The notes under the pieces were generated by a model, which worked only from the letters and a program-made list of their open reading frames with translations, did no database searches and was not told the DNA's origin. A stretch of DNA of 64,000 nucleotides from contig NC_091976.1 of NCBI RefSeq assembly GCF_036711975.1, positions 26,784,001 through 26,848,000 on the forward strand. Direction: 5' to 3'. Position numbers and translations under genes: made by a program. Shown one piece after another: positions 52,951-63,990 of this stretch; within the stretch, counting starts at the first letter, position 1, and every line of letters starts with the position of its first letter. This DNA is from Onthophagus taurus. Taxonomy: Eukaryota > Arthropoda > Insecta > Coleoptera > Scarabaeidae.

Positions 52951-53363
52951 GGCTGTATTTCATAAGTTTTGTTGCCTTGTCGAAATCTATTTAATGGAAG
53001 CTAATCTTATTCTTTTATTAAACTAAAACTAGAAACTTTCGGGTTTTGCCGTGCGTCTTTTAATAAAAGGTTTGACGTTTCGGATGCCATGTTGCAACCT
53101 TCTTCAGAAACTGGTTCGAAGTGACGAGATCAAAAATCGGTAACTATATATAAGTCGGAAAAACTAATTAATAATCAGTTAACGCTAATTACAAGCTAAT
53201 TAATGACTAATTGCGTCGCGTCCGGTGTGAGGCGGGAAGAGGTCTTCGTGTTCACCACCATCTTCCATGTTCTGCTAAGCTCCCAGCCATCCTCTCTGTT
53301 AACGTTATTTTTATGTCGGTGGATCTCTATGGCTTCTCTTGTCAGTCTTTGGTAGTATCTGTT

Positions 53364-54869
53364 TTCCCCACAGACAAAATCGTAAGAAAAATGAAGGAAC
53401 TGATAAAAACCACAGGAATTCCAGCAGAACAGCAGAAAGGTTTGTTTGTGCAGGCGCCGGTACCACCAAGAATCTACGGACTACCGAAGATGCACAAACC
53501 AGACGTCCCCCTCCGCCCTATCGTCAGCGCCATCAACTCCCCAACATACCAGCTGGCCAAACATCTTGCAAAGATTCTGTCTCCCTTTACAGGTAACACG
53601 GAATCGTATGTCAGGGATTCTACACATTTTGTGGAATCGGTAAAAGGTGTAAAGCTGGAGGCTGGGGATATGTTGGTAAGTTTCGATGTGGAATCCCTTT
53701 TTACTAGGGTACCAGTTAAGGATGCTGTAGAGGGTTTTCGCCGAAAACTCATTCCGGAGGGTTTACCAGAATACGTGCCAGATCTGGTGGAGTATTGCTT
53801 ATCGTCGACGTATTTCAGCTAGAAAGGAGAATTTTACGAGCAGTTCGAAGGGGCAGCCATGGGATCTCCACTATCGCCAGTTATAGCTAATTTCTACATG
53901 GAATTATTCGAAGAGGACGCTTTGAAGAAGAGCCAGTGGAAACCAAAACTATGGCTACGATATGTGGATGACACGTTTGTGATATGGCAACATGGTCAAA
54001 AACGGCTCCAAGAGTTCTTGGATCACTTGAACTCTCAACATCCTATGATTAAGTTCACCATGGAAACAGAAACTGCCAAAAAACTACCTTTCCTAGATGT
54101 ATTGGTCACCAGGACGACAAATGGAGATATAGAACTTGGTGTATACCGAAAGAAGACCCATACCAACAGGTATTTACAGGCATGTTCACATCATCATCCC
54201 CAACAGAAGAGGTCCGTGATCCGTACATTATTTCAGCGAGCAGCGAGACTATGTGAAGGAGAGAACTTGAAGAAGGAGCAACACTTTCTACGAGGCGTGC
54301 TGCAGAAGAATGGATACACTTCGAGGGACATCAACCAGGCCATCAAGCAGCGAAAGCAGAAAGAGGACACGGTAAGTACAAAACCACTTGGATTTATCTG
54401 TCTTCCATATGTTTCAGGTGTAACGGAACGAATTGCTAGGCACCTCAAGAAGAACGACATCGTAGTGCGGTACGGCACGGTCAGCAAAATTCGGAACACA
54501 CTCCCGATAGCCAAGGACAAACTAACTCCATTAAAAGGAGCGGGAGTCTATCGACTATCGTGTAGTTGTGGGAAGGTTTATGTTGGCCAAACTGGACGCA
54601 ACGTCGAGTGCCGCATGAAGGAGCATGAGAGGGATGTAAGGCTGAAGAAGATCCAGCAGTCGGCGGTTGCGGAACATTGCCATGCAGAGGGGCACCGAAT
54701 AGACTTCGAACAAACAAAGGTGCTGGCTAGGGACAACAGATACTACCAAAGACTGACAAGAGAAGCCATAGAGATCCACCGACATAAAAATAACGTTAAC
54801 AGAGAGGATGGCTGGGAGCTTAGCAGAACATGGAAGATGGTGGTGAACACGAAGACTGACGAAAACTGA
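53364..54869 (+). pseudogene. Penelope-like RT–GIY-YIG ORF, 5'-truncated with one stop
   Basis: Reads from about 53370 to TGA at 54867–54869 in one frame, with a single TAG at 53820–53822. Seen: PPRIYGLPKMHKPDVPLRPI (RT motif), LVSFDVESLFTRVPV (first catalytic Asp), EGAAMGSPLSPVIANFYME, WLRYVDDTFVIW (YVDD), PFLDVLVTR, then the endonuclease core GAGVYRLSCSCGKVYVGQTG and RMKEHERDVR. The N-terminus expected for Penelope RT is lost at the junction with the inverted arm. Apart from the stop the frame is clean, so the copy is young. Confidence 0.9.
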
Positions 54870-55578: not shown

Positions 55579-56366
55579 TGTAACAAACCGCATTTTGGGA
55601 TTCGAAAGCGATTAAAAAAAAATAATAAAACGCAATACAGGCAGAACTTTGTAATTTAATTACGAAGTTGCGTCTTGAGAACCGAGGGTCCAGACTAAAT
55701 ACTACGTAGGCGGTTCTGGCAGGAATGTGCCGAGGTGGCAGTTAGAGTAGATGGAGCAGGGGAGAAATGAAGAAAAAATCGGGGAGTCGGTTACGGGATT
55801 GGAACAGAAAAGCATCGGGCGAAACCGGGAAATTAAAGTTTTTGTTGTGTTTTTAAATTCGAGTCGTGCGATTTGAACTTATAGCAATTTAGTTATAAAA
55901 TTCGTTGAATTGGATTCTCTTTCTTCGATGAATATTTTACTTTAACAAACGGGTAAGCGTTATTAAAATCTTAAACTTCCGATTTCTCATTGAACCTGCT
56001 AACCACCTCGGCAAATTTCGTAATGATGTTGTTGAATAGCTTATGTCATGTAATTTTTACTTTTTAAAACCTTTGTCAGTTGTTTTTTTTTATATATAAT
56101 ATAATACGTTCTTGTTCAAAAATAAAGCAAACTTATTCTTTAGCAGTGAAATTTCGTTTTCTTTCAATCTATTTTTATTCTTAATTTCAAATTACTGCCG
56201 TTTGCTTTCAAGTGAACGAATGCAGTGTGCCAAACCCTAACTCAGTCATTGCTAGCTATCAAGAAAACGGTAGTGCGTGGACAGTTGGGTACGCGAGCCG
56301 CTCCGTGGACCTAGCTAGGAAACCCACTACGGGAAACGAGAAGTTCTCGAGAGCTAGTTTGTGACA
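55579..56366 (+). repeat. 5' LTR, 788 bp (inferred)
   Basis: Begins TGTAACAAAC and ends GTTTGTGACA, a 9/10 inverted pair with TG…CA ends. A TATA-like run (TTTATATATAATATAATA, ~56089) is followed by AATAAA at 56121–56126. The end lies 3 bp before the primer-binding site. The start rests on the inverted terminal match, since the 3' LTR is not in the window. Confidence 0.75.
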
Positions 56367-56369
56367 AAC

Positions 56370-56387
56370 TGGTGTCAGGTGTGGGGT
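56370..56387 (+). promoter_or_regulatory. Primer-binding site, probably tRNA-Leu
   Basis: TGGTGTCAG at 56370–56378, starting with the TGG that pairs with CCA. It fits tRNA-Leu 3' ends (…CTGACACCA). The match weakens after nine bases. Confidence 0.6.
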
Positions 56388-56614: not shown

Positions 56615-57730
56615 ATGAACGCCGATGATAACGTAGCAGAAATTCCGGGCGAAGCTGAAGGTTCTATTCTAACAACACCAATGATGGTTACACCGATTTC
56701 TTTAGGAATGTTAGCAGGAACGGTAGAATCTTTTTCAGGTCGAGAAAATGTTAAACTGTATTTTGAAAGGTTAGAGCAACGTGCGATCTTAGATAATTGG
56801 AATGAAACACAAATGCTTCATATTGTTAGGTATCGATTGAGTGGAGAGGCTTATAAATTTTATAAGGCGGAAACAAACTTACAGAGTAATCAGGTCACAT
56901 ATGTAGAATTACGGGAAAAATTAATTAAAAAGTTTACCCCGCGAAAATTACCGGGAGAAGCACTAGGGAAATTAATGCGCGCGTTCCAAAAACACGATGA
57001 ATCCGTGTCGTCTTACGTAACCAGTATAAAGTCTATCGCGAATGAGATTATCGAGGAGGACAAAGCGAAAGTAACAGCAGCAGAATTACCGGGAGTTATT
57101 ATAAAAATTAATGAATTAGCACTAAGTCAATTTAAAGTGGGAATGAAACGTGAATTAAGCCAAATGGTAGGAACGTTACTTATGCGTGAAACGGATTTAA
57201 CTCTAGATAAAGCGGAAGAGATCGCATCATTTGAAGAATTAAATCAGGCTACAAACCGAAATCGTCCAAATCGAATTAATATAGGAGCGGTGGATACGAC
57301 TACTAGATTATGTTACAGATGCGGAAAGTCAGGTCATTTTGCGAAATTTTGTAATGCACAGACAACCGTGTTTAATTGTTATAATTGCGGGAAACCCGGT
57401 CATATTAGTAAACAATGTAGGTTACCTTCAAATAAAATGCAACCGAACTACGACCAAAGGCGTGACCTCCCACGCCGTGTTAGTTTTCAAGAGGGTCATT
57501 CATCCGATAAGGTAAACAACCGCGACCGAAGAAATTTTTATTACCAACAGCGAGATTATCAAAACGAACCGCGACGTAATGTAAACGATAACAATTATAT
57601 GGGCCGACAATCGCCCCCGCAGGTTACTAGATCACCGCAAATTCCCGCAAATAACAGGTACAATGAGACGAACTCTTTAAACGCATATCGTCCTGCGGTG
57701 AATACCCGAACCGCAGGAGACTCGAATTAA
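56615..57730 (+). CDS. gag: Retrotransposon Gag
   Basis: 371 aa. A helical capsid-type region (FSGRENVKLYFERLEQRAIL, YRLSGEAYKFYKAE) is followed by two CCHC zinc knuckles, CYRCGKSGHFAKFC (from residue 233) and CYNCGKPGHISKQC (from residue 255). A basic, Asn/Arg-rich tail ends it. It packages the element RNA into particles. The last 64 nt overlap the pol frame and contain the frameshift site. The ATG at 56615 follows an AT-rich leader of ~230 nt after the PBS. Confidence 0.93.
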   Translation: MNADDNVAEIPGEAEGSILTTPMMVTPISLGMLAGTVESFSGRENVKLYFERLEQRAILDNWNETQMLHIVRYRLSGEAYKFYKAETNLQSNQVTYVELREKLIKKFTPRKLPGEALGKLMRAFQKHDESVSSYVTSIKSIANEIIEEDKAKVTAAELPGVIIKINELALSQFKVGMKRELSQMVGTLLMRETDLTLDKAEEIASFEELNQATNRNRPNRINIGAVDTTTRLCYRCGKSGHFAKFCNAQTTVFNCYNCGKPGHISKQCRLPSNKMQPNYDQRRDLPRRVSFQEGHSSDKVNNRDRRNFYYQQRDYQNEPRRNVNDNNYMGRQSPPQVTRSPQIPANNRYNETNSLNAYRPAVNTRTAGDSN

Positions 57731-60700
57731 AGGGTTACGATAGGTCAATAAAGTCTGTCGAAAATTATGACCCAACTGTAAATAAGATTATACCGCATAT
57801 GAGACTCATTTTTGAAACACCTTTTTCTATTAAATTGTTCAATAAAAACAAACCAATAACGATGTTAGTAGACACCGGTTCTCCTGTTACGATAATTAAA
57901 CATTCTTGTGTAATTTCGGAAGCAATTAAACCTATGTCGGGAGATTTTAGTATTTCGGGAATAACGGGACACGGAATTGACATGCTAGGTACGACTGAGT
58001 TAAATTTTTCATTGGGGAATGAATCGAATTTAGGAGATTTCTCGTGCTATGTATGTTTGGACAATTTGCCTTTAACCACAGATGGAGTATTGGGACGCGA
58101 TTTTATGGAATTTCACAATGTAATTATTGATTTTAGTAAAGGTAGCCTAAATGTAGGAGGTATCGATGTTAGATTTTCAAGTATCATGAACGTCAATTTG
58201 GGGTCGCAGCGTATTGTGTCTACAGATTCCCTTGAATGTAGAGAATCCACCACATCAGGTTTAGGTGTAGGTCAGGTAGATAATTTGGAACTCGCGAATG
58301 ATTATGTATCAGAATTATCAACGGAAATAAATTTAATCGAACCGCAAGTAACGAGGACGGAGTATCTAATAAAGAAACGTGAAGTCGAAGAAAAGTACGT
58401 AACCGAGGAGACGAATCAACGAACGAGGTTTATGCCACTCGAGGTAAATGTTTTGGTAGAAGAGTTTGGGGAGTTAAGTTCAGATAGCAACGATGACTAT
58501 GAAACCGGGTATCGCCGAATGATCGATGTAAATGTGGACAGGGATTGTCACGATAGAAGAATAGAAGAAGAAGAAAAAAAAACAGAGAAATTAAAGACTA
58601 AAGAAAGTCAAAGGGAGAGCCGAGAAGGCGAAAGTCAAGAAGACCCCAGCGGAAGTAGTGGATTAGTGACGCAGAAGTCACGAATTGTTGCAGAAAATAA
58701 TGAGTTAAGGGAATGCGAAAATGAAGAAGAAATTAAGGATGAAACTGATATGAAAGATACGGAAGAAAACGAAATAAACAATGATAAAAACTGTCAATAT
58801 AATCCTGTTATCACCGTTGAAGAAGATATCGTTGAACCGTTTACAGAGAAGGTGTTAGCGGTTGACGTGCGTAATAATAATAAAAAGAACGACATTGTAA
58901 TTGAATCAAGTAAAACGCCCTTTCATCCAAATATATTAATAGGAAGATGTGCTGTTCCAAGAGGGGAAAAACCACGAGTATTGGTTGCAAACATAGGAGA
59001 AGAATCAATAACGATTCCAAAGCATACAGAGATAGCTAGAGCGTATAGTTGTATAATACCGAATAAGAAGGTTAATCCAGAAGTAAAAAGCGAGATGGTT
59101 GCAATGATAAGAGAAAACGAAGAGACATCAACATTTTTGGAATCGATCTCATTGGTCCACCTATCAGAAACAGACAAAGAGAAAGTTGAAAAATTGTTAC
59201 TAGATTATCGAGATATTTTCGACAATGGTGACGAAAGTTTTACGAAAACTCACAAGGTCAAACATCAAATTATTACTGAGAATGTACCACCAATTAGTAA
59301 ACGTCCATATAGAGTACCAGTTCATCAACGAGAGTTCTTGCAGGAAGAAATAGATAAGCTGTTAAAGAAAAATATTATTAAACCATCTCATTCACCCTGG
59401 TCGGCGCCGGTTGTAATCGTTAACCGGCAGATGTCAGACGGATCGATAAAACCCCGAGTATGTATAGATTACCGAGGACTCAACGCGGTAACTAAGAAAG
59501 ATGTGTACCCGTTGCCGAATCTGCAAGAGACAGTAGATGTGTTAGGGAAGACTAATCTGTTTAGCGTGTTTGATGTAGCGTCGGCGTACCATCAAATAGA
59601 AGTGGAGAAGAATGACCGAGAAAAAACAGCTTTCTCCACGCCGTTCGGGCACTATGAGAGCAACCGAATGATGTTTGGGCTAGTAAATGCCCCCGCGACG
59701 TTTCAGCGCTTCATGAATTTTACATTTTCGGGATTGTTAGGTACTCATTGCCTCGTCTATTTAGATGATATAATAATTTTCAATGGAACGGGTGTCGACG
59801 ATCATTTGAACAAACTACAAACTATTTTTGATAGAATCCGAGATGCAGGACTAAAACTTAAGATGGAGAAAAGCCAGATCGCGGTCCCAAAGGTGTCTTA
59901 TCTTGGTCACATAATATCTGCCCAAGGCGTTCAACCGGATCCGGGAAAAATCAACTCGATACAGAATTTCCCCGTTCCAAAAAACGTTAGGAATTGTAGA
60001 GAATTTTTAGGGCTGGTGGGATGGTATAGGAAATTTATACCGGACTTTACCCGATTAGCGGCCCCAATTACGAAGTTAACGCGCAAAGATGTCGCGTTTA
60101 AATTCGAAAAAGAGCAATTGGAAGCGGTGGAAAGCTTAAAGGCCGCGATAACATCAGAATCGGTATTAATTTTCCCAGATTTCAATGAGCCTTTCATCTT
60201 GGCTACAGACGCGAGTAACACAGGATTAGGTGCTATACTTAGCCAGGTGAGAGAGGGAAATGAACGCCCTGTGGCTTTCGCTAGTAGAGGACTAAAGAAG
60301 GCTGAGCTAAACTATTCGACTACCGAAAAAGAGTGTCTTGCTGTCATATTTGGGATAAAGCAATTTCGGTGCTACTTATATGGACGCCGTTTCACTATCA
60401 TAACAGACCACAGACCATTGAAATGGTTGATGAATATCAAAGACCCGAGCTCGAGACTAGCACGATGGGCTTTAATGCTAATGGAGTATGACTTCGAGAT
60501 TATCCACAGACCGGGCCGAAAGCATGGAAACGTGGATGCTCTCAGCCGAAACAGTATAGTTTCCCTAATCCGAAAGGATGAGAAAGATAAGTTATGCATT
60601 AATGAAGTAGAGGGAAATTTGTTTGATGCTCCCCAAGGTTGGGTATTAGCTCATTGCGTTTCGGCGGATTTTGCGATGGGAGCTGGTATTGCAAAGGAAT

Positions 60701-62745
60701 TTAAAAAGCGATTTGGCTCCGTTGAAAAATTAAGATCCGAGGAGAAAGGAGTTGGTGACATAGTACCGCAAATAGCGGAGAAACGAAAAATATACCATTT
60801 AATTTCAAAGGACGAATACTACCATAAACCAACGTACCACATGTTGAGACAGTGTCTAGAAACGTTACGGGAGGAAATGAATAAATCTGGGGAGAGATAT
60901 TTGGCAATACCCAGAATAGGATGTGGTCTCGATAAACTAAAGTGGAGCCTAGTTAAAGAAGAATTAAGAGAATGTTTTGAGGGAACGAATACCATGATAA
61001 TGGTATATAAATTACCTTTCGTTAAAAATAAAACACTATGTAAAATACAGGAAAATATAGCAACGCCAGTTTGGGATAAAAATGTTATTTTGAAAGAACA
61101 AGATAAGGACGAGTTTTGCATTGAAATACGGGATTCGCTTTCATCAAACAAAGATCTTAGGGATAGTTATTTCATAGATAATGATAAGCTCTTATTTAAA
61201 ACTGATGAGTTAGGAAAAGAAGTACTAGTGTTGCCGAAATCATTTGTGCAGAAGGCTTTGCATGATTACCACGATTTACCATTTGCAGGTCATGGCGGTC
61301 AAGCGAAAACATTAGCTTTACTTAAGGATAGGGTATTTTGGCCGTCTATGACACGTGATGTTAAAAAGTATTGTTCGAATTGTGAGTCATGCAATAGACG
61401 TAAAACTTCCCCCCATATGTCTAGAGCACCCTTGCAAAAATTTACAACTGTTCGAAAGCCATTCGAAAGAAGTTCAATGGACATAGTGGGTCCGTTACCA
61501 ACAACATACAAAGGAAACAAGTATATACTTACGTTCCAGGACTATTTCACCAAATATTTAGAGGCAGTAGCCTTACCTGATCAGAAGGCTGATACTGTGG
61601 CTCGAGCTTTTGTAACGCAAATAGTAAGTCGCCACGGTACTCCTCTGCAGTTGCTCACCGATCAGGGTACAAATTTTGTGTCGTCACTCATGAAGGAAAT
61701 TTGTAAGCTATTAAATATCGACAAAATACAAACCACACCGTATCATCCCGAGTGCAATGGTCTTATCGAGAGAAGTCATCGGGTGATCAAGGACGTACTA
61801 TCTCACTATGTTAAAAAGGACCAAAGAACCTGGGATGAATGGCTACCCTATGTTCTTCTGGCGTACAGATCAACGGTGCATAGTAGTACGGGCTATACCC
61901 CCCACTTTTTGTTATACGGCAGGGAAATGGAATTACCAGTGGATGTTTTTCTCCGACCCTCCAGGTGTAAGTACGACTGTGATGAGAACTATGTGACGGA
62001 ATTGGCAGCGCGAATGAACCACGTGTATGAGACGGTTTTTGAAAGTTTGCAGCTTGCCGCTCGAAGACAGGCTGAGTATTATAATAAAAGAAGTAAGCAC
62101 AGAGATTTTTACGTAGGAGAGTTGGTACTCTTAAAAGACACATCTATAAAACCAGGTCTAAATAGAAAATTAGCCCAACCTTGGATAGGACCGTACATGA
62201 TTACAAAAATTAAAGGACCAGAGAACTACGAAATTACATCAGTAAACGGAAAGCTAAAATCTATTGTACATAGTAATAGATTGAAATCATTTCGAACTAA
62301 TAAAGACTCAACCCCGAAAGAGTGTAAAAGCCTAGATTCGAATGTACACCTCGAAGAAATAAACGAAGACCGGTATGTTGATCCACATATGCCGATAATC
62401 AGTTTACATACACCGGATCTGACTTTTCGAAAAAATACAGGAGTAACAGATTTACTAAATGAGACCCCCTGCCCAAAAATTAATATATGTCCGAGACGAT
62501 TAATTCTAGAAGAGAGTGATGATACTAGTACAGCAGAAAATCTGGAAGGGAAAAATGAATGTATGAGTAAGGAGTTGTTGGAGTCAATAGCTGAACCTTC
62601 TGAAAACCCTTCAGAAATAGAAAGAGAACGTGAGGACGATAGCATTATTATTAAGGCACCAGAATTAATAGATGAACCCCTTGAAGAACCGTTGGCAATA
62701 CGACGGGAGAGGAGAGCCATAAAACTTCCAGCTAGGTATAGGTAA
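57667..62745 (+). CDS. pol: Retrotransposon Pol: protease–RT–RNase H–macrodomain–integrase
   Basis: Open from 57667; numbered here from the ATG at 57799 (1648 aa), though synthesis is probably by frameshift from gag. Protease: LVDTGSPV with Asp25. Acidic spacer ~150–400. RT ~490–700 with LVYLDDIIIF (YLDD 654–657). RNase H from ~795 with LATDASNTGLGAIL (Asp804) to VDALSR (~915). A TARG1-like macrodomain, ~934–1074. Integrase: zinc-binding His1158/His1165 and Cys1192/Cys1195, catalytic Asp1228, Asp1288 and Glu1324 (DD35E), then a GPY/F-type module (KLAQPWIGPYMITKIKG). A charged C-terminal tail of ~150 residues follows. All catalytic residues are in place, so the copy may be competent. Confidence 0.94.
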   Translation, partial: DELFKRISSCGEYPNRRRLELKGYDRSIKSVENYDPTVNKIIPHMRLIFETPFSIKLFNKNKPITMLVDTGSPVTIIKHSCVISEAIKPMSGDFSISGITGHGIDMLGTTELNFSLGNESNLGDFSCYVCLDNLPLTTDGVLGRDFMEFHNVIIDFSKGSLNVGGIDVRFSSIMNVNLGSQRIVSTDSLECRESTTSGLGVGQVDNLELANDYVSELSTEINLIEPQVTRTEYLIKKREVEEKYVTEETNQRTRFMPLEVNVLVEEFGELSSDSNDDYETGYRRMIDVNVDRDCHDRRIEEEEKKTEKLKTKESQRESREGESQEDPSGSSGLVTQKSRIVAENNELRECENEEEIKDETDMKDTEENEINNDKNCQYNPVITVEEDIVEPFTEKVLAVDVRNNNKKNDIVIESSKTPFHPNILIGRCAVPRGEKPRVLVANIGEESITIPKHTEIARAYSCIIPNKKVNPEVKSEMVAMIRENEETSTFLESISLVHLSETDKEKVEKLLLDYRDIFDNGDESFTKTHKVKHQIITENVPPISKRPYRVPVHQREFLQEEIDKLLKKNIIKPSHSPWSAPVVIVNRQMSDGSIKPRVCIDYRGLNAVTKKDVYPLPNLQETVDVLGKTNLFSVFDVASAYHQIEVEKNDREKTAFSTPFGHYESNRMMFGLVNAPATFQRFMNFTFSGLLGTHCLVYLDDIIIFNGTGVDDHLNKLQTIFDRIRDAGLKLKMEKSQIAVPKVSYLGHIISAQGVQPDPGKINSIQNFPVPKNVRNCREFLGLVGWYRKFIPDFTRLAAPITKLTRKDVAFKFEKEQLEAVESLKAAITSESVLIFPDFNEPFILATDASNTGLGAILSQVREGNERPVAFASRGLKKAELNYSTTEKECLAVIFGIKQFRCYLYGRRFTIITDHRPLKWLMNIKDPSSRLARWALMLMEYDFEIIHRPGRKHGNVDALSRNSIVSLIRKDEKDKLCINEVEGNLFDAPQGWVLAHCVSADFAMGAGIAKEFKKRFGSVEKLRSEEKGVGDIVPQIAEKRKIYHLISKDEYYHKPTYHMLRQCLETLREEMNKSGERYLAIPRIGCGLDKLKWSLVKEELRECFEGTNTMIMVYKLPFVKNKTLCKIQENIATPVWDKNVILKEQDKDEFCIEIRDSLSSNKDLRDSYFIDNDKLLFKTDELGKEVLVLPKSFVQKALHDYHDLPFAGHGGQAKTLALLKDRVFWPSMTRDVKKYCSNCESCNRRKTSPHMSRAPLQKFTTVRKPFERSSMDIVGPLPTTYKGNKYILTFQDYFTKYLEAVALPDQKADTVARAFVTQIVSRHGTPLQLLTDQGTNFVSSLMKEICKLLNIDKIQTTPYHPECNGLIERSHRVIKDVLSHYVKKDQRTWDEWLPYVLLAYRSTVHSSTGYTPHFLLYGREMELPVDVFLRPSRCKYDCDENYVTELAARMNHVYETVFESLQLAARRQAEYYNKRSKHRDFYVGELVLLKDTSIKPGLNRKLAQPWIGPYMITKIKGPENYEITSVNGKLKSIVHSNRLKSFRTNKDSTPKECKSLDSNVHLEEINEDRYVDPHMPIISLHTPDLTFRKNTGVTDLLNETPCPKINICPRRLILEESDDTSTAENLEGKNECMSKELLESIAEPSENPSEIEREREDDSIIIKAPELIDEPLEEPLAIRRERRAIKLPARYR
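57676..57718 (+). promoter_or_regulatory. -1 ribosomal frameshift signal between gag and pol
   Basis: Heptamer T TTA AAC at 57676–57682 lies in phase with gag codons TTA and AAC. After an 8-nt spacer a perfect 9-bp stem forms: TCCTGCGGT (57691–57699) with ACCGCAGGA (57710–57718), loop 10 nt. Loop bases ACCC (57704–57707) could pair with GGGT (57732–57735) as a small pseudoknot. Pol is open from 57667, so the shift lands in the pol frame. Confidence 0.87.
60598..61020 (+). other. TARG1/OARD1-type macrodomain embedded in Pol
   Basis: Residues ~934–1074 of Pol do not fit any retroelement domain but read as a complete macrodomain: a GNLF start, LAHCVSADFAMGAGIAKEFK (the MGAGIA ribose/phosphate loop), YHLISKDEYYHKPTYHML, IPRIGCGLDKLKW and a final MIMVYKLPF strand. 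TARG1-like macrodomains remove ADP-ribose from proteins through a Lys and an Asp; here Lys1004 (in LISKD) and Asp1045 (in GCGLD) are 41 residues apart, as in human TARG1 (Lys84, Asp125). The frame is unbroken on both sides, so it would be made as part of Pol. Confidence 0.9.
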
Positions 62746-62978
62746 AGTATAAGGTATACAGGTAAAAAAAAAAAGAAAAAAAAAAATAAATAACTAATAA
62801 ATAAATAAAAATATTAATATTAAAATAAGTAAATTAATAAGTTAAATACTAAAATTAAAAAGAAAATAAATTTATTTATTTTTTTTTAAATAATAAAAAA
62901 AAAATATATAATTAATAGCTTTTATTGTCTATTCTGTTGTTGATTACTAAACACCGGAAAATCGGATTTTTGTTTTTG
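62746..62978 (+). other. A-rich spacer between pol and the envelope-like region
   Basis: Runs of A and TAAATAAATA follow the pol stop codon. No coding potential; the 3' LTR does not begin here, as no copy of TGTAACAAAC is seen. Confidence 0.5.
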
Positions 62979-63990
62979 TTTGTTTCAGCGCTCTTAACTA
63001 CTTTATTGGCGATTGGAGCCTACATAAATATAGGATTAACAATTTATTATCGCATACGATTGTAGCACCCGTAGTGTTAATATTAGTCTCATATCGCTAA
63101 AAAAAAAAAACGTTGGAAATTGTTCACAAATAAGGTCCAATTATGTAGAAAACATGTTACAAGTGCAAATAGTCCAAAGAGCCCGGATTCACCGACAAAT
63201 CGTATATAGAAACACATAAAAATCGCTTATTGTTGGCCCCGTTATCACCAACCACCGTTAGTTTGCTCGCTAAGAATGAAACGAGTTATGTCGGCCGTGC
63301 AATCGGAGAAGTCCTGTACATATTGAAATGTGTACCAAAGAGAGTGCAAGTAAGAAAAACGTATACTTGCTACCATGAACTTCCTGTCTCTGATACGGAT
63401 AACCGGTCCTATTTTGAGTCGCCAATGACACATGTACTCCTGGACTATGCAGACCAGGTTGACCGCAACCTCATTAATTCACCAATGTATCAGATTGAAA
63501 AGCCCTGGGTAGCCTTAACTCCACTGCAGGTATCCCAGACACCTCCTGATGGACTTCTACCTTACGAAGATTCAGAAATCAAAATTTAGTACCATTATGA
63601 ATTTGGGAGTGGCCGAAATTTATAACAACGAAGACGTCAGACAAGCACAAGAACTAGTACAAGTCGGCTTGGAACGATCAGCTATAAACAATGTCATTAT
63701 TAGAAAAATCCAGGGAAAGAAGACAGAAAAATAAGAACTGGATTCAACTATTTCATGCGGAAGAGTTGCGTAAATTTGCTAAGAGCACGTTATCGCACGA
63801 GTGATTGTTTTATTGTGTTTCGTAAAGGGACTCGCTAGCGTGATATTGAATGGCTACGCAATATATAAAACCTTGGGATGCGGTATCGTCATCTTGGCCA
63901 GTTGTGGAAAAATTTTACGATGTGGCTTCTTAATCAGAGGAGGGGTGAGGATCTTGCTTCGCCAGAAACTCCGACTAACATAGTTCCTGA
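62979..63990 (+). pseudogene. Envelope-like remnant downstream of pol
   Basis: A splice-acceptor-like signal (TACTAAAC, pyrimidine run, TTTCAG ending 62988) precedes it. The best part, 63230–63589, has an insect envelope-like block (VLYILKCVPKRVQ, CYHELPVSDTDN, YFESPMTHVLL). A second frame, 63549–63734, continues with DVRQAQELVQ and LERSAINNVI. Layout and wording are closest to the chuvirus-type glycoproteins captured by insect retrotransposons; that assignment is inference. At least two frameshifts or stops separate the pieces (after 63587 and 63732), so no complete product is made. It continues to the window edge. Confidence 0.5.

Follow-up and report, generated by a model that had tools for sequence, protein, structure and literature searches.

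The window analyzed here, a 64,000-nucleotide stretch of the Onthophagus taurus genome (contig NC_091976.1, positions 26,784,001 to 26,848,000), contains a long terminal repeat (LTR) retrotransposon whose Pol polyprotein holds an in-frame TARG1-like macrodomain with a complete catalytic pair. The Pfam domains of pol are, from the N-terminal end, protease, reverse transcriptase (RT), RNase H, and Macro, followed by the zinc finger, the core, and the C-terminal domain of integrase (Table 1). The LTRs, the gag frame, and the protease-RT-RNase H-integrase order of pol identify the element as Ty3/gypsy-type (Metaviridae), as do the LTR ends (TGT...ACA, with the TG...CA expected of this group) together with a short target-site duplication, GCAG (4 base pairs, bp), which flanks both ends of the element. 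The two LTRs are 100% identical over 788 bp (blastn), which indicates that the insertion is recent. The original prediction, made from the sequence alone, had described a full-length macrodomain, free of stops and frameshifts, between RNase H and integrase; the uninterrupted pol frame, the Pfam order, and matches to TARG1 over the whole domain all agree with that description.

The Pfam Macro profile (PF01661) matches the whole pol product with an E value of 9.8e-4 and 19.5 bits, which is just under the gathering cut-off of 22 bits. The family relation therefore rests on phmmer matches to PDB chains and on superposition with TARG1. The translation of positions 60538 to 61080 matches five TARG1/C6orf130 sequences (E values of 6.5e-34 to 1.3e-33) across the whole domain, which places the full-length domain in the TARG1/OARD1 sequence family. 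The structure was modeled from a 35-row alignment, the single-sequence prediction being poor (predicted local distance difference test score, 46.7). The predicted model has a TARG1-type fold, and its residues 3 to 143 align structurally with TARG1 residues 12 to 152 (141 residues). Based on this alignment, Lys1004 corresponds to Lys84 of TARG1 and Asp1045 to Asp125, with the 41-residue spacing that had been predicted. Asp125 is a catalytic residue of TARG1. A catalytic role of Lys84 has been reported (PMC8501950).

Table 1. Features of the Onthophagus taurus element, in window coordinates
Feature	Position	Strand	Details and basis
5' LTR	55579..56366	+	788 bp; blastn
Presumed primer-binding site	56370..56386	+	3 bp past 5' LTR; inferred from sequence
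gag open reading frame	56615..57730	+	371 amino acids (aa), zinc knuckles
pol open reading frame	57799..62745	+	1648 aa, uninterrupted
Aspartyl protease	57844..58110	+	pol 16-104; Pfam
RT	59449..59916	+	pol 551-706; Pfam
RNase H	60178..60489	+	pol 794-897; Pfam
TARG1/OARD1-type macrodomain	60586..61023	+	pol 930-1075; Pfam, phmmer, predicted structure
Lys1004 codon (= TARG1 Lys84)	60808..60810	+	alignment
Asp1045 codon (= TARG1 Asp125)	60931..60933	+	alignment
Integrase zinc-binding domain	61234..61410	+	pol 1146-1204; Pfam
Integrase core	61456..61749	+	pol 1220-1317; Pfam
Integrase C-terminal domain	62188..62286	+	pol 1464-1496; Pfam
Monjiviricetes (chuvirus-type) fusion glycoprotein remnant	63173..63586	+	profile positions 346-463 of 653 only
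3' LTR	window-equivalent 64747-65534, beyond window end		788 bp; blastn

The glycoprotein remnant lies between pol and the 3' LTR. The longest frame in positions 62746 to 64746 is 138 aa, so no complete envelope frame is seen there. Capture of chuvirus glycoproteins has been reported for mosquito Pao elements (PMC7642597); the element that holds the present remnant is of Ty3/gypsy type rather than Pao. Elsewhere in the window, positions 53211 to 54869 hold an RT fragment whose only profile match, to RVT_1, is below the Pfam cut-off; the fragment looks Penelope-like, and its end resembles GIY-YIG. The host HPS5 gene, whose insect-specific TPR domain marks the host as an insect, is at positions 440 to 2254 on the minus strand. 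A search for telomere motifs gave TTAGG repeats at a single internal site and no TCAGG repeats, which is insufficient to assign an insect group.

Macrodomain-bearing Pols in O. taurus and other genomes

A search of the O. taurus genome (290.8 Mb) with the macrodomain gave 73 matches: 22 at 98 to 100% identity, one at 67%, seven at 49 to 50%, eleven at 45 to 46%, and the rest weaker. The 22 near-identical copies and the further families described below exclude a single-locus occurrence. Seventeen of the 22 share one 1692-codon frame, although in L021, which is among the 17, a stop interrupts the macrodomain. (Here, L labels are loci of this genome, P labels are proteins from protein searches, and family letters are our own.) The 73 matches represent 68 loci, and another Pol domain lies within ~1.5 kb at 66 of these, the exceptions being L052 and L053. 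The latter is an OARD1-like gene of the host itself; it has two exons, is about 50% identical to an Anopheles OARD1, and is only 37% identical to the element macrodomain over the matched part. A near-alike copy of this host gene, L075, is on a separate contig and differs close to the end of the frame.

Families were set by Pol similarity, with L032, L044, L058, and L064 falling outside the lettered ones. The macrodomain is between RNase H and integrase in family A, to which the window copy belongs, and, where enough of the element remains, in families A' (L023, L049, L051, and L056), B (L024 to L030, L048, and L050), and D (L045 to L047, L054, and L055). Degenerate macrodomains occupy the same slot in families E (L060 to L063, L065, and L066), F (L067 and L068), and G (L069). 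In family C (L033 to L042, L057, and L059) the macrodomain is between protease and RT, and family H (L070 to L074) has a degenerate macrodomain before RT.

A protein search with the macrodomain segment of pol found three Pol proteins, P0001 to P0003 (38 to 44%). A second search, with RT-RNase H, gave 5101 proteins, of which the best 120 were screened with a macrodomain profile built here; the profile matches 13 of these 120, 10 strongly and 3 weakly (P0223, P0241, and P0243). Counting P0001 to P0003, the total is 16 of 123 proteins, 13 of them strong matches. Other Pols with the RNase H-macrodomain-integrase order, which the original prediction had proposed to look for in insect genomes, exist: P0001 to P0003, P0184, P0188, P0189, P0191, P0196, and P0197. 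P0196 is from Leptinotarsa decemlineata and is annotated as tropomodulin isoform X2; it is probably a mixed gene model of a beetle Pol with a macrodomain. Among the other strong matches, the macrodomain of P0195 follows RNase H and the protein ends there, that of P0202 precedes RT, and those of P0200 (already labelled Pfam Macro) and P0231 follow integrase. The predicted slot thus holds for the window element and families A', B, and D and is too narrow as a general rule, since macrodomains also occur before RT and after integrase.

The history of these domains was examined in an RT-RNase H tree of 59 rows, which omits multi-RT proteins, short RT-RNase H pieces, P0001, which lacks an RT, P0196, whose RT match is of insufficient length, L044, L058, and L069, and in which family D is represented by L054, whose own macrodomain is broken. 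One 12-row clade (support 100/100) contains nine elements with the RNase H-macrodomain-integrase order, the macrodomain-less P0172 and P0175, and the long-linker P0185. The before-RT elements of family C and P0202 join this clade (98/96). The after-integrase pair P0200/P0231 is nested in a different RT clade that is otherwise without macrodomains; the degenerate RNase H-integrase macrodomains are in a 16-row clade (99/100) alongside long-linker elements; and family H and P0002/P0003 are far away. Macrodomain presence and absence on this tree involve at least 10 changes, in which gain and loss are not distinguishable.

In a tree of the macrodomains themselves the backbone is weak, and P0001 to P0003 group apart as a separate clade (100/98). 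For 14 well-aligned element macrodomains, among which L047 has Asn in place of the catalytic Asp, placement in one clade is rejected (p-AU of 0.017), while one clade of this genome's six macrodomains is not (p-AU of 0.065), nor is that clade with five more (0.088). The groups for these tests were chosen with an earlier tree already in view; eight long-branch rows and L075 had been removed beforehand, and the bootstrap had not settled. The position of P0200 beside the window copy on a long branch in an earlier macrodomain tree is not trusted. Because macrodomain-bearing elements are in separate RT groups and one clade is rejected, more than one capture is indicated. We conclude that there were at least two captures, and probably more, as well as losses, and that the three slots were reached by moves or by independent insertions. 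Carriage of a macrodomain appears to be a strategy that these elements have adopted repeatedly.

Long linkers between RNase H and integrase (~198 to 261 aa) occur in P0215, P0218 (Monomorium pharaonis), P0219, P0230, P0232, P0235, L076, and L078. They contain no recognised domain, and by RT their elements belong to the clade that holds the degenerate macrodomains; L077 is cut by the frame end. The idea that the long linkers of P0215 to P0235, L076 to L078, P0206, P0185, and P0238 are degenerate macrodomains is unsupported (hhalign, best 25.9%).

Constraint on the macrodomain and its proposed function

Selection was measured between the window copy and L023, whose macrodomain is 67% identical, as the ratio of nonsynonymous to synonymous difference proportions (pN/pS), since dS is not computable for the macrodomain and integrase in this comparison because of saturation. 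The macrodomain has a pS of 0.78, which is near saturation, and a pN of 0.187, a ratio of 0.240. Changes at codon positions 1, 2, and 3 number 33, 19, and 79 over 141 codons. In 500 neutral simulations matched on total changes, the mean ratio was 0.98 and the minimum was 0.62, which excludes neutral evolution of the macrodomain for this comparison. For other parts of Pol, the ratio is 0.091 in the integrase core, 0.161 in the zinc finger, 0.177 in the C part of integrase, and 0.329 in the linker that follows the macrodomain. Within family A, the macrodomain ratio is 0.235 (7 variable sites) and the RT ratio is 0.226 (12 variable sites). A functionless passenger, captured by accident and amplified with the element, might be suspected from the macrodomain-less P0172 and P0175 and from catalytic decay in other elements. 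However, purifying selection with synonymous sites near saturation already disfavors this explanation, and macrodomains are present in distant elements and in several slots; we consider it very improbable.

We favor, with a probability of roughly 0.6, the reading that this Ty3/gypsy-type element carries a TARG1-type ADP-ribosyl hydrolase in Pol that clears ADP-ribose from complementary DNA (cDNA) and/or proteins. Because the macrodomain is part of the same polypeptide as RT, RNase H, and integrase, it would be carried into the particle and the pre-integration complex. One target may be ADP-ribose on the element's own cDNA; another may be Pol or chromatin proteins at the integration site, modified by host PARP-1. 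Removal would prevent a block to reverse transcription, to integration, or to the expression of newly inserted copies. Reverse transcription yields single-stranded DNA and DNA ends inside the Pol-carrying particle. A TARG1 domain attached to RT and integrase would be well placed to clean such DNA. TARG1 and DarG are reported to strip ADP-ribose from thymidine in DNA, and TARG1 to reverse DNA ADP-ribosylation, with the K84A mutant failing to rescue (PMC8501950). On telomeric DNA, ADP-ribose is described as added by PARP1, with single-stranded DNA as the site, and removed by TARG1 (PMC11102865). In Drosophila lacking PARP-1, mobile elements, mostly of the gypsy superfamily of LTR elements, are reported to tend to go up (PMC7712786). 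If a DNA/protein de-ADP-ribosylase is kept in Pol, this would suggest that reverse transcription or integration in insects is under pressure from ADP-ribosylation, a question that becomes testable with one small soluble domain.

Several observations weigh against this reading. The RT relatives P0172 (63%) and P0175 (62%) have only a short linker where a macrodomain would be, which means that some elements can do without the enzyme. When catalytic residues were scored in 26 element macrodomains aligned to the profile, three (L067, L069, and P0223) had the Lys and Asp columns with the N-terminal half or the loops lost, and Lys and/or Asp was absent in seven (L047, L060, L070, P0184, P0197, P0202, and P0243); L047 has Asn for Asp, whereas its sister L046 keeps the Asp. 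The macrodomain evolves faster than integrase in the L023 comparison, and in families B (0.375), C (0.359), D (0.583), E (0.434), and H (0.678) its pN/pS exceeds that of every other compared domain, the macrodomain sets of B and C including one divergent copy each (L024 and L032) that is missing from the other-domain sets. Judged by these ratios, the macrodomain is under purifying selection but is less constrained than the rest of Pol. Finally, the authors of the Drosophila study allow that the de-repression may be indirect (PMC7712786).

The higher pN/pS in families B to E and H would also fit a macrodomain whose main role is binding or structural, either as a reader of ADP-ribose, poly(ADP-ribose), or nucleic acid or as a spacer between RNase H and integrase, with catalysis a leftover of its origin. 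In L060 (family E), L067 (F), L069 (G), P0223, and P0243, the fold is still recognised (profile comparison with element macrodomains, 99.6%, E value of 3.9e-24; with cellular OARD1, 99.1%) despite the loss of the binding loops; L060 and P0243 also lack catalytic residues; and long-linker elements without a detectable macrodomain share the RT clade. However, Lys, Asp, and both glycine loops are recognisable in 16 of the 26 macrodomains, in separate lineages that include families A, B, and C, which is not expected of a pure spacer, and we regard a mainly binding or structural role as rather unlikely. Under the hydrolase reading, the target may have changed or the pressure ended in some lineages, the fold being kept as a binding or spacer domain while the active site decayed. 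Recognisable macrodomain folds with lost binding loops occur in the same Pol slot in L060 to L063, L065 to L069, P0223, and P0243, and the elements thus provide, within one slot, a naturally occurring range of macrodomains from apparently live to apparently dead. For alphaviruses, recurrent loss of macrodomain activity is published, including its loss in insect-specific alphaviruses (PMC10221186).

A further explanation is counter-defence of the coronavirus and alphavirus kind, directed at antiviral PARPs that carry out mono-ADP-ribosylation. Structurally close macrodomains do occur in predicted arthropod-virus proteins (Kadipiro virus VP8 and Frankliniella- and Thrips-associated viruses). However, insects are described as lacking most vertebrate PARPs (PMC10221186), so the parallel with viral macrodomains is weak for insects and this explanation, which fits them poorly, is improbable. 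We infer that a DNA or PARP-1 target fits better. More tentatively, and less likely than not, repeated TARG1-type capture into three Pol slots, followed by decay, may record an arms race where ADP-ribosylation acts on retrotransposon cDNA or the integration machinery in insects, and perhaps other animals, as a hitherto undescribed defence.

Comparison with known systems

The closest known relative is TARG1/OARD1 (C6orf130), the cellular enzyme known as terminal ADP-ribose glycohydrolase, which shares the predicted fold, the Lys/Asp pair, and 44 to 45% identity over the domain; cellular TARG1 is a separate small protein, whereas the version described here is a domain of Pol. The match to the macrodomain of DarG, a bacterial antitoxin with DNA ADP-ribosyl glycohydrolase activity, reaches 49.7 bits against an NCBIfam equivalog cut-off of 250, and a profile scan of pol found no DarT partner domain in the frame. 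Alphavirus and coronavirus macrodomains likewise have the macro fold within a polyprotein but are a weaker structural match than TARG1 and belong to another subtype.

Some lentiviruses carry a captured dUTPase in Pol, which is likewise a cellular enzyme added as an extra domain but a different enzyme. LTR elements of bdelloid rotifers are reported to have a dUTPase between protease and RT, and the main text of that paper does not contain the terms "macro" or "ADP-ribos" (PMC5408684). Fish epsilon-like retroviral sequences, which also combine a retroelement with a macrodomain, may carry macro-domain open reading frames (Basta et al. 2009, cited in PMC4977317); the ray-finned-fish retroviral macrodomain is described there as an additional open reading frame, whereas that of the window element lies within Pol. 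We found no report of a macrodomain within a Ty3/gypsy Pol in open-licence PMC papers, which is no proof of absence. Enzyme capture by retroelements is already known; here the enzyme is one other than dUTPase, it occupies three different positions in Pol, and its capture was repeated.
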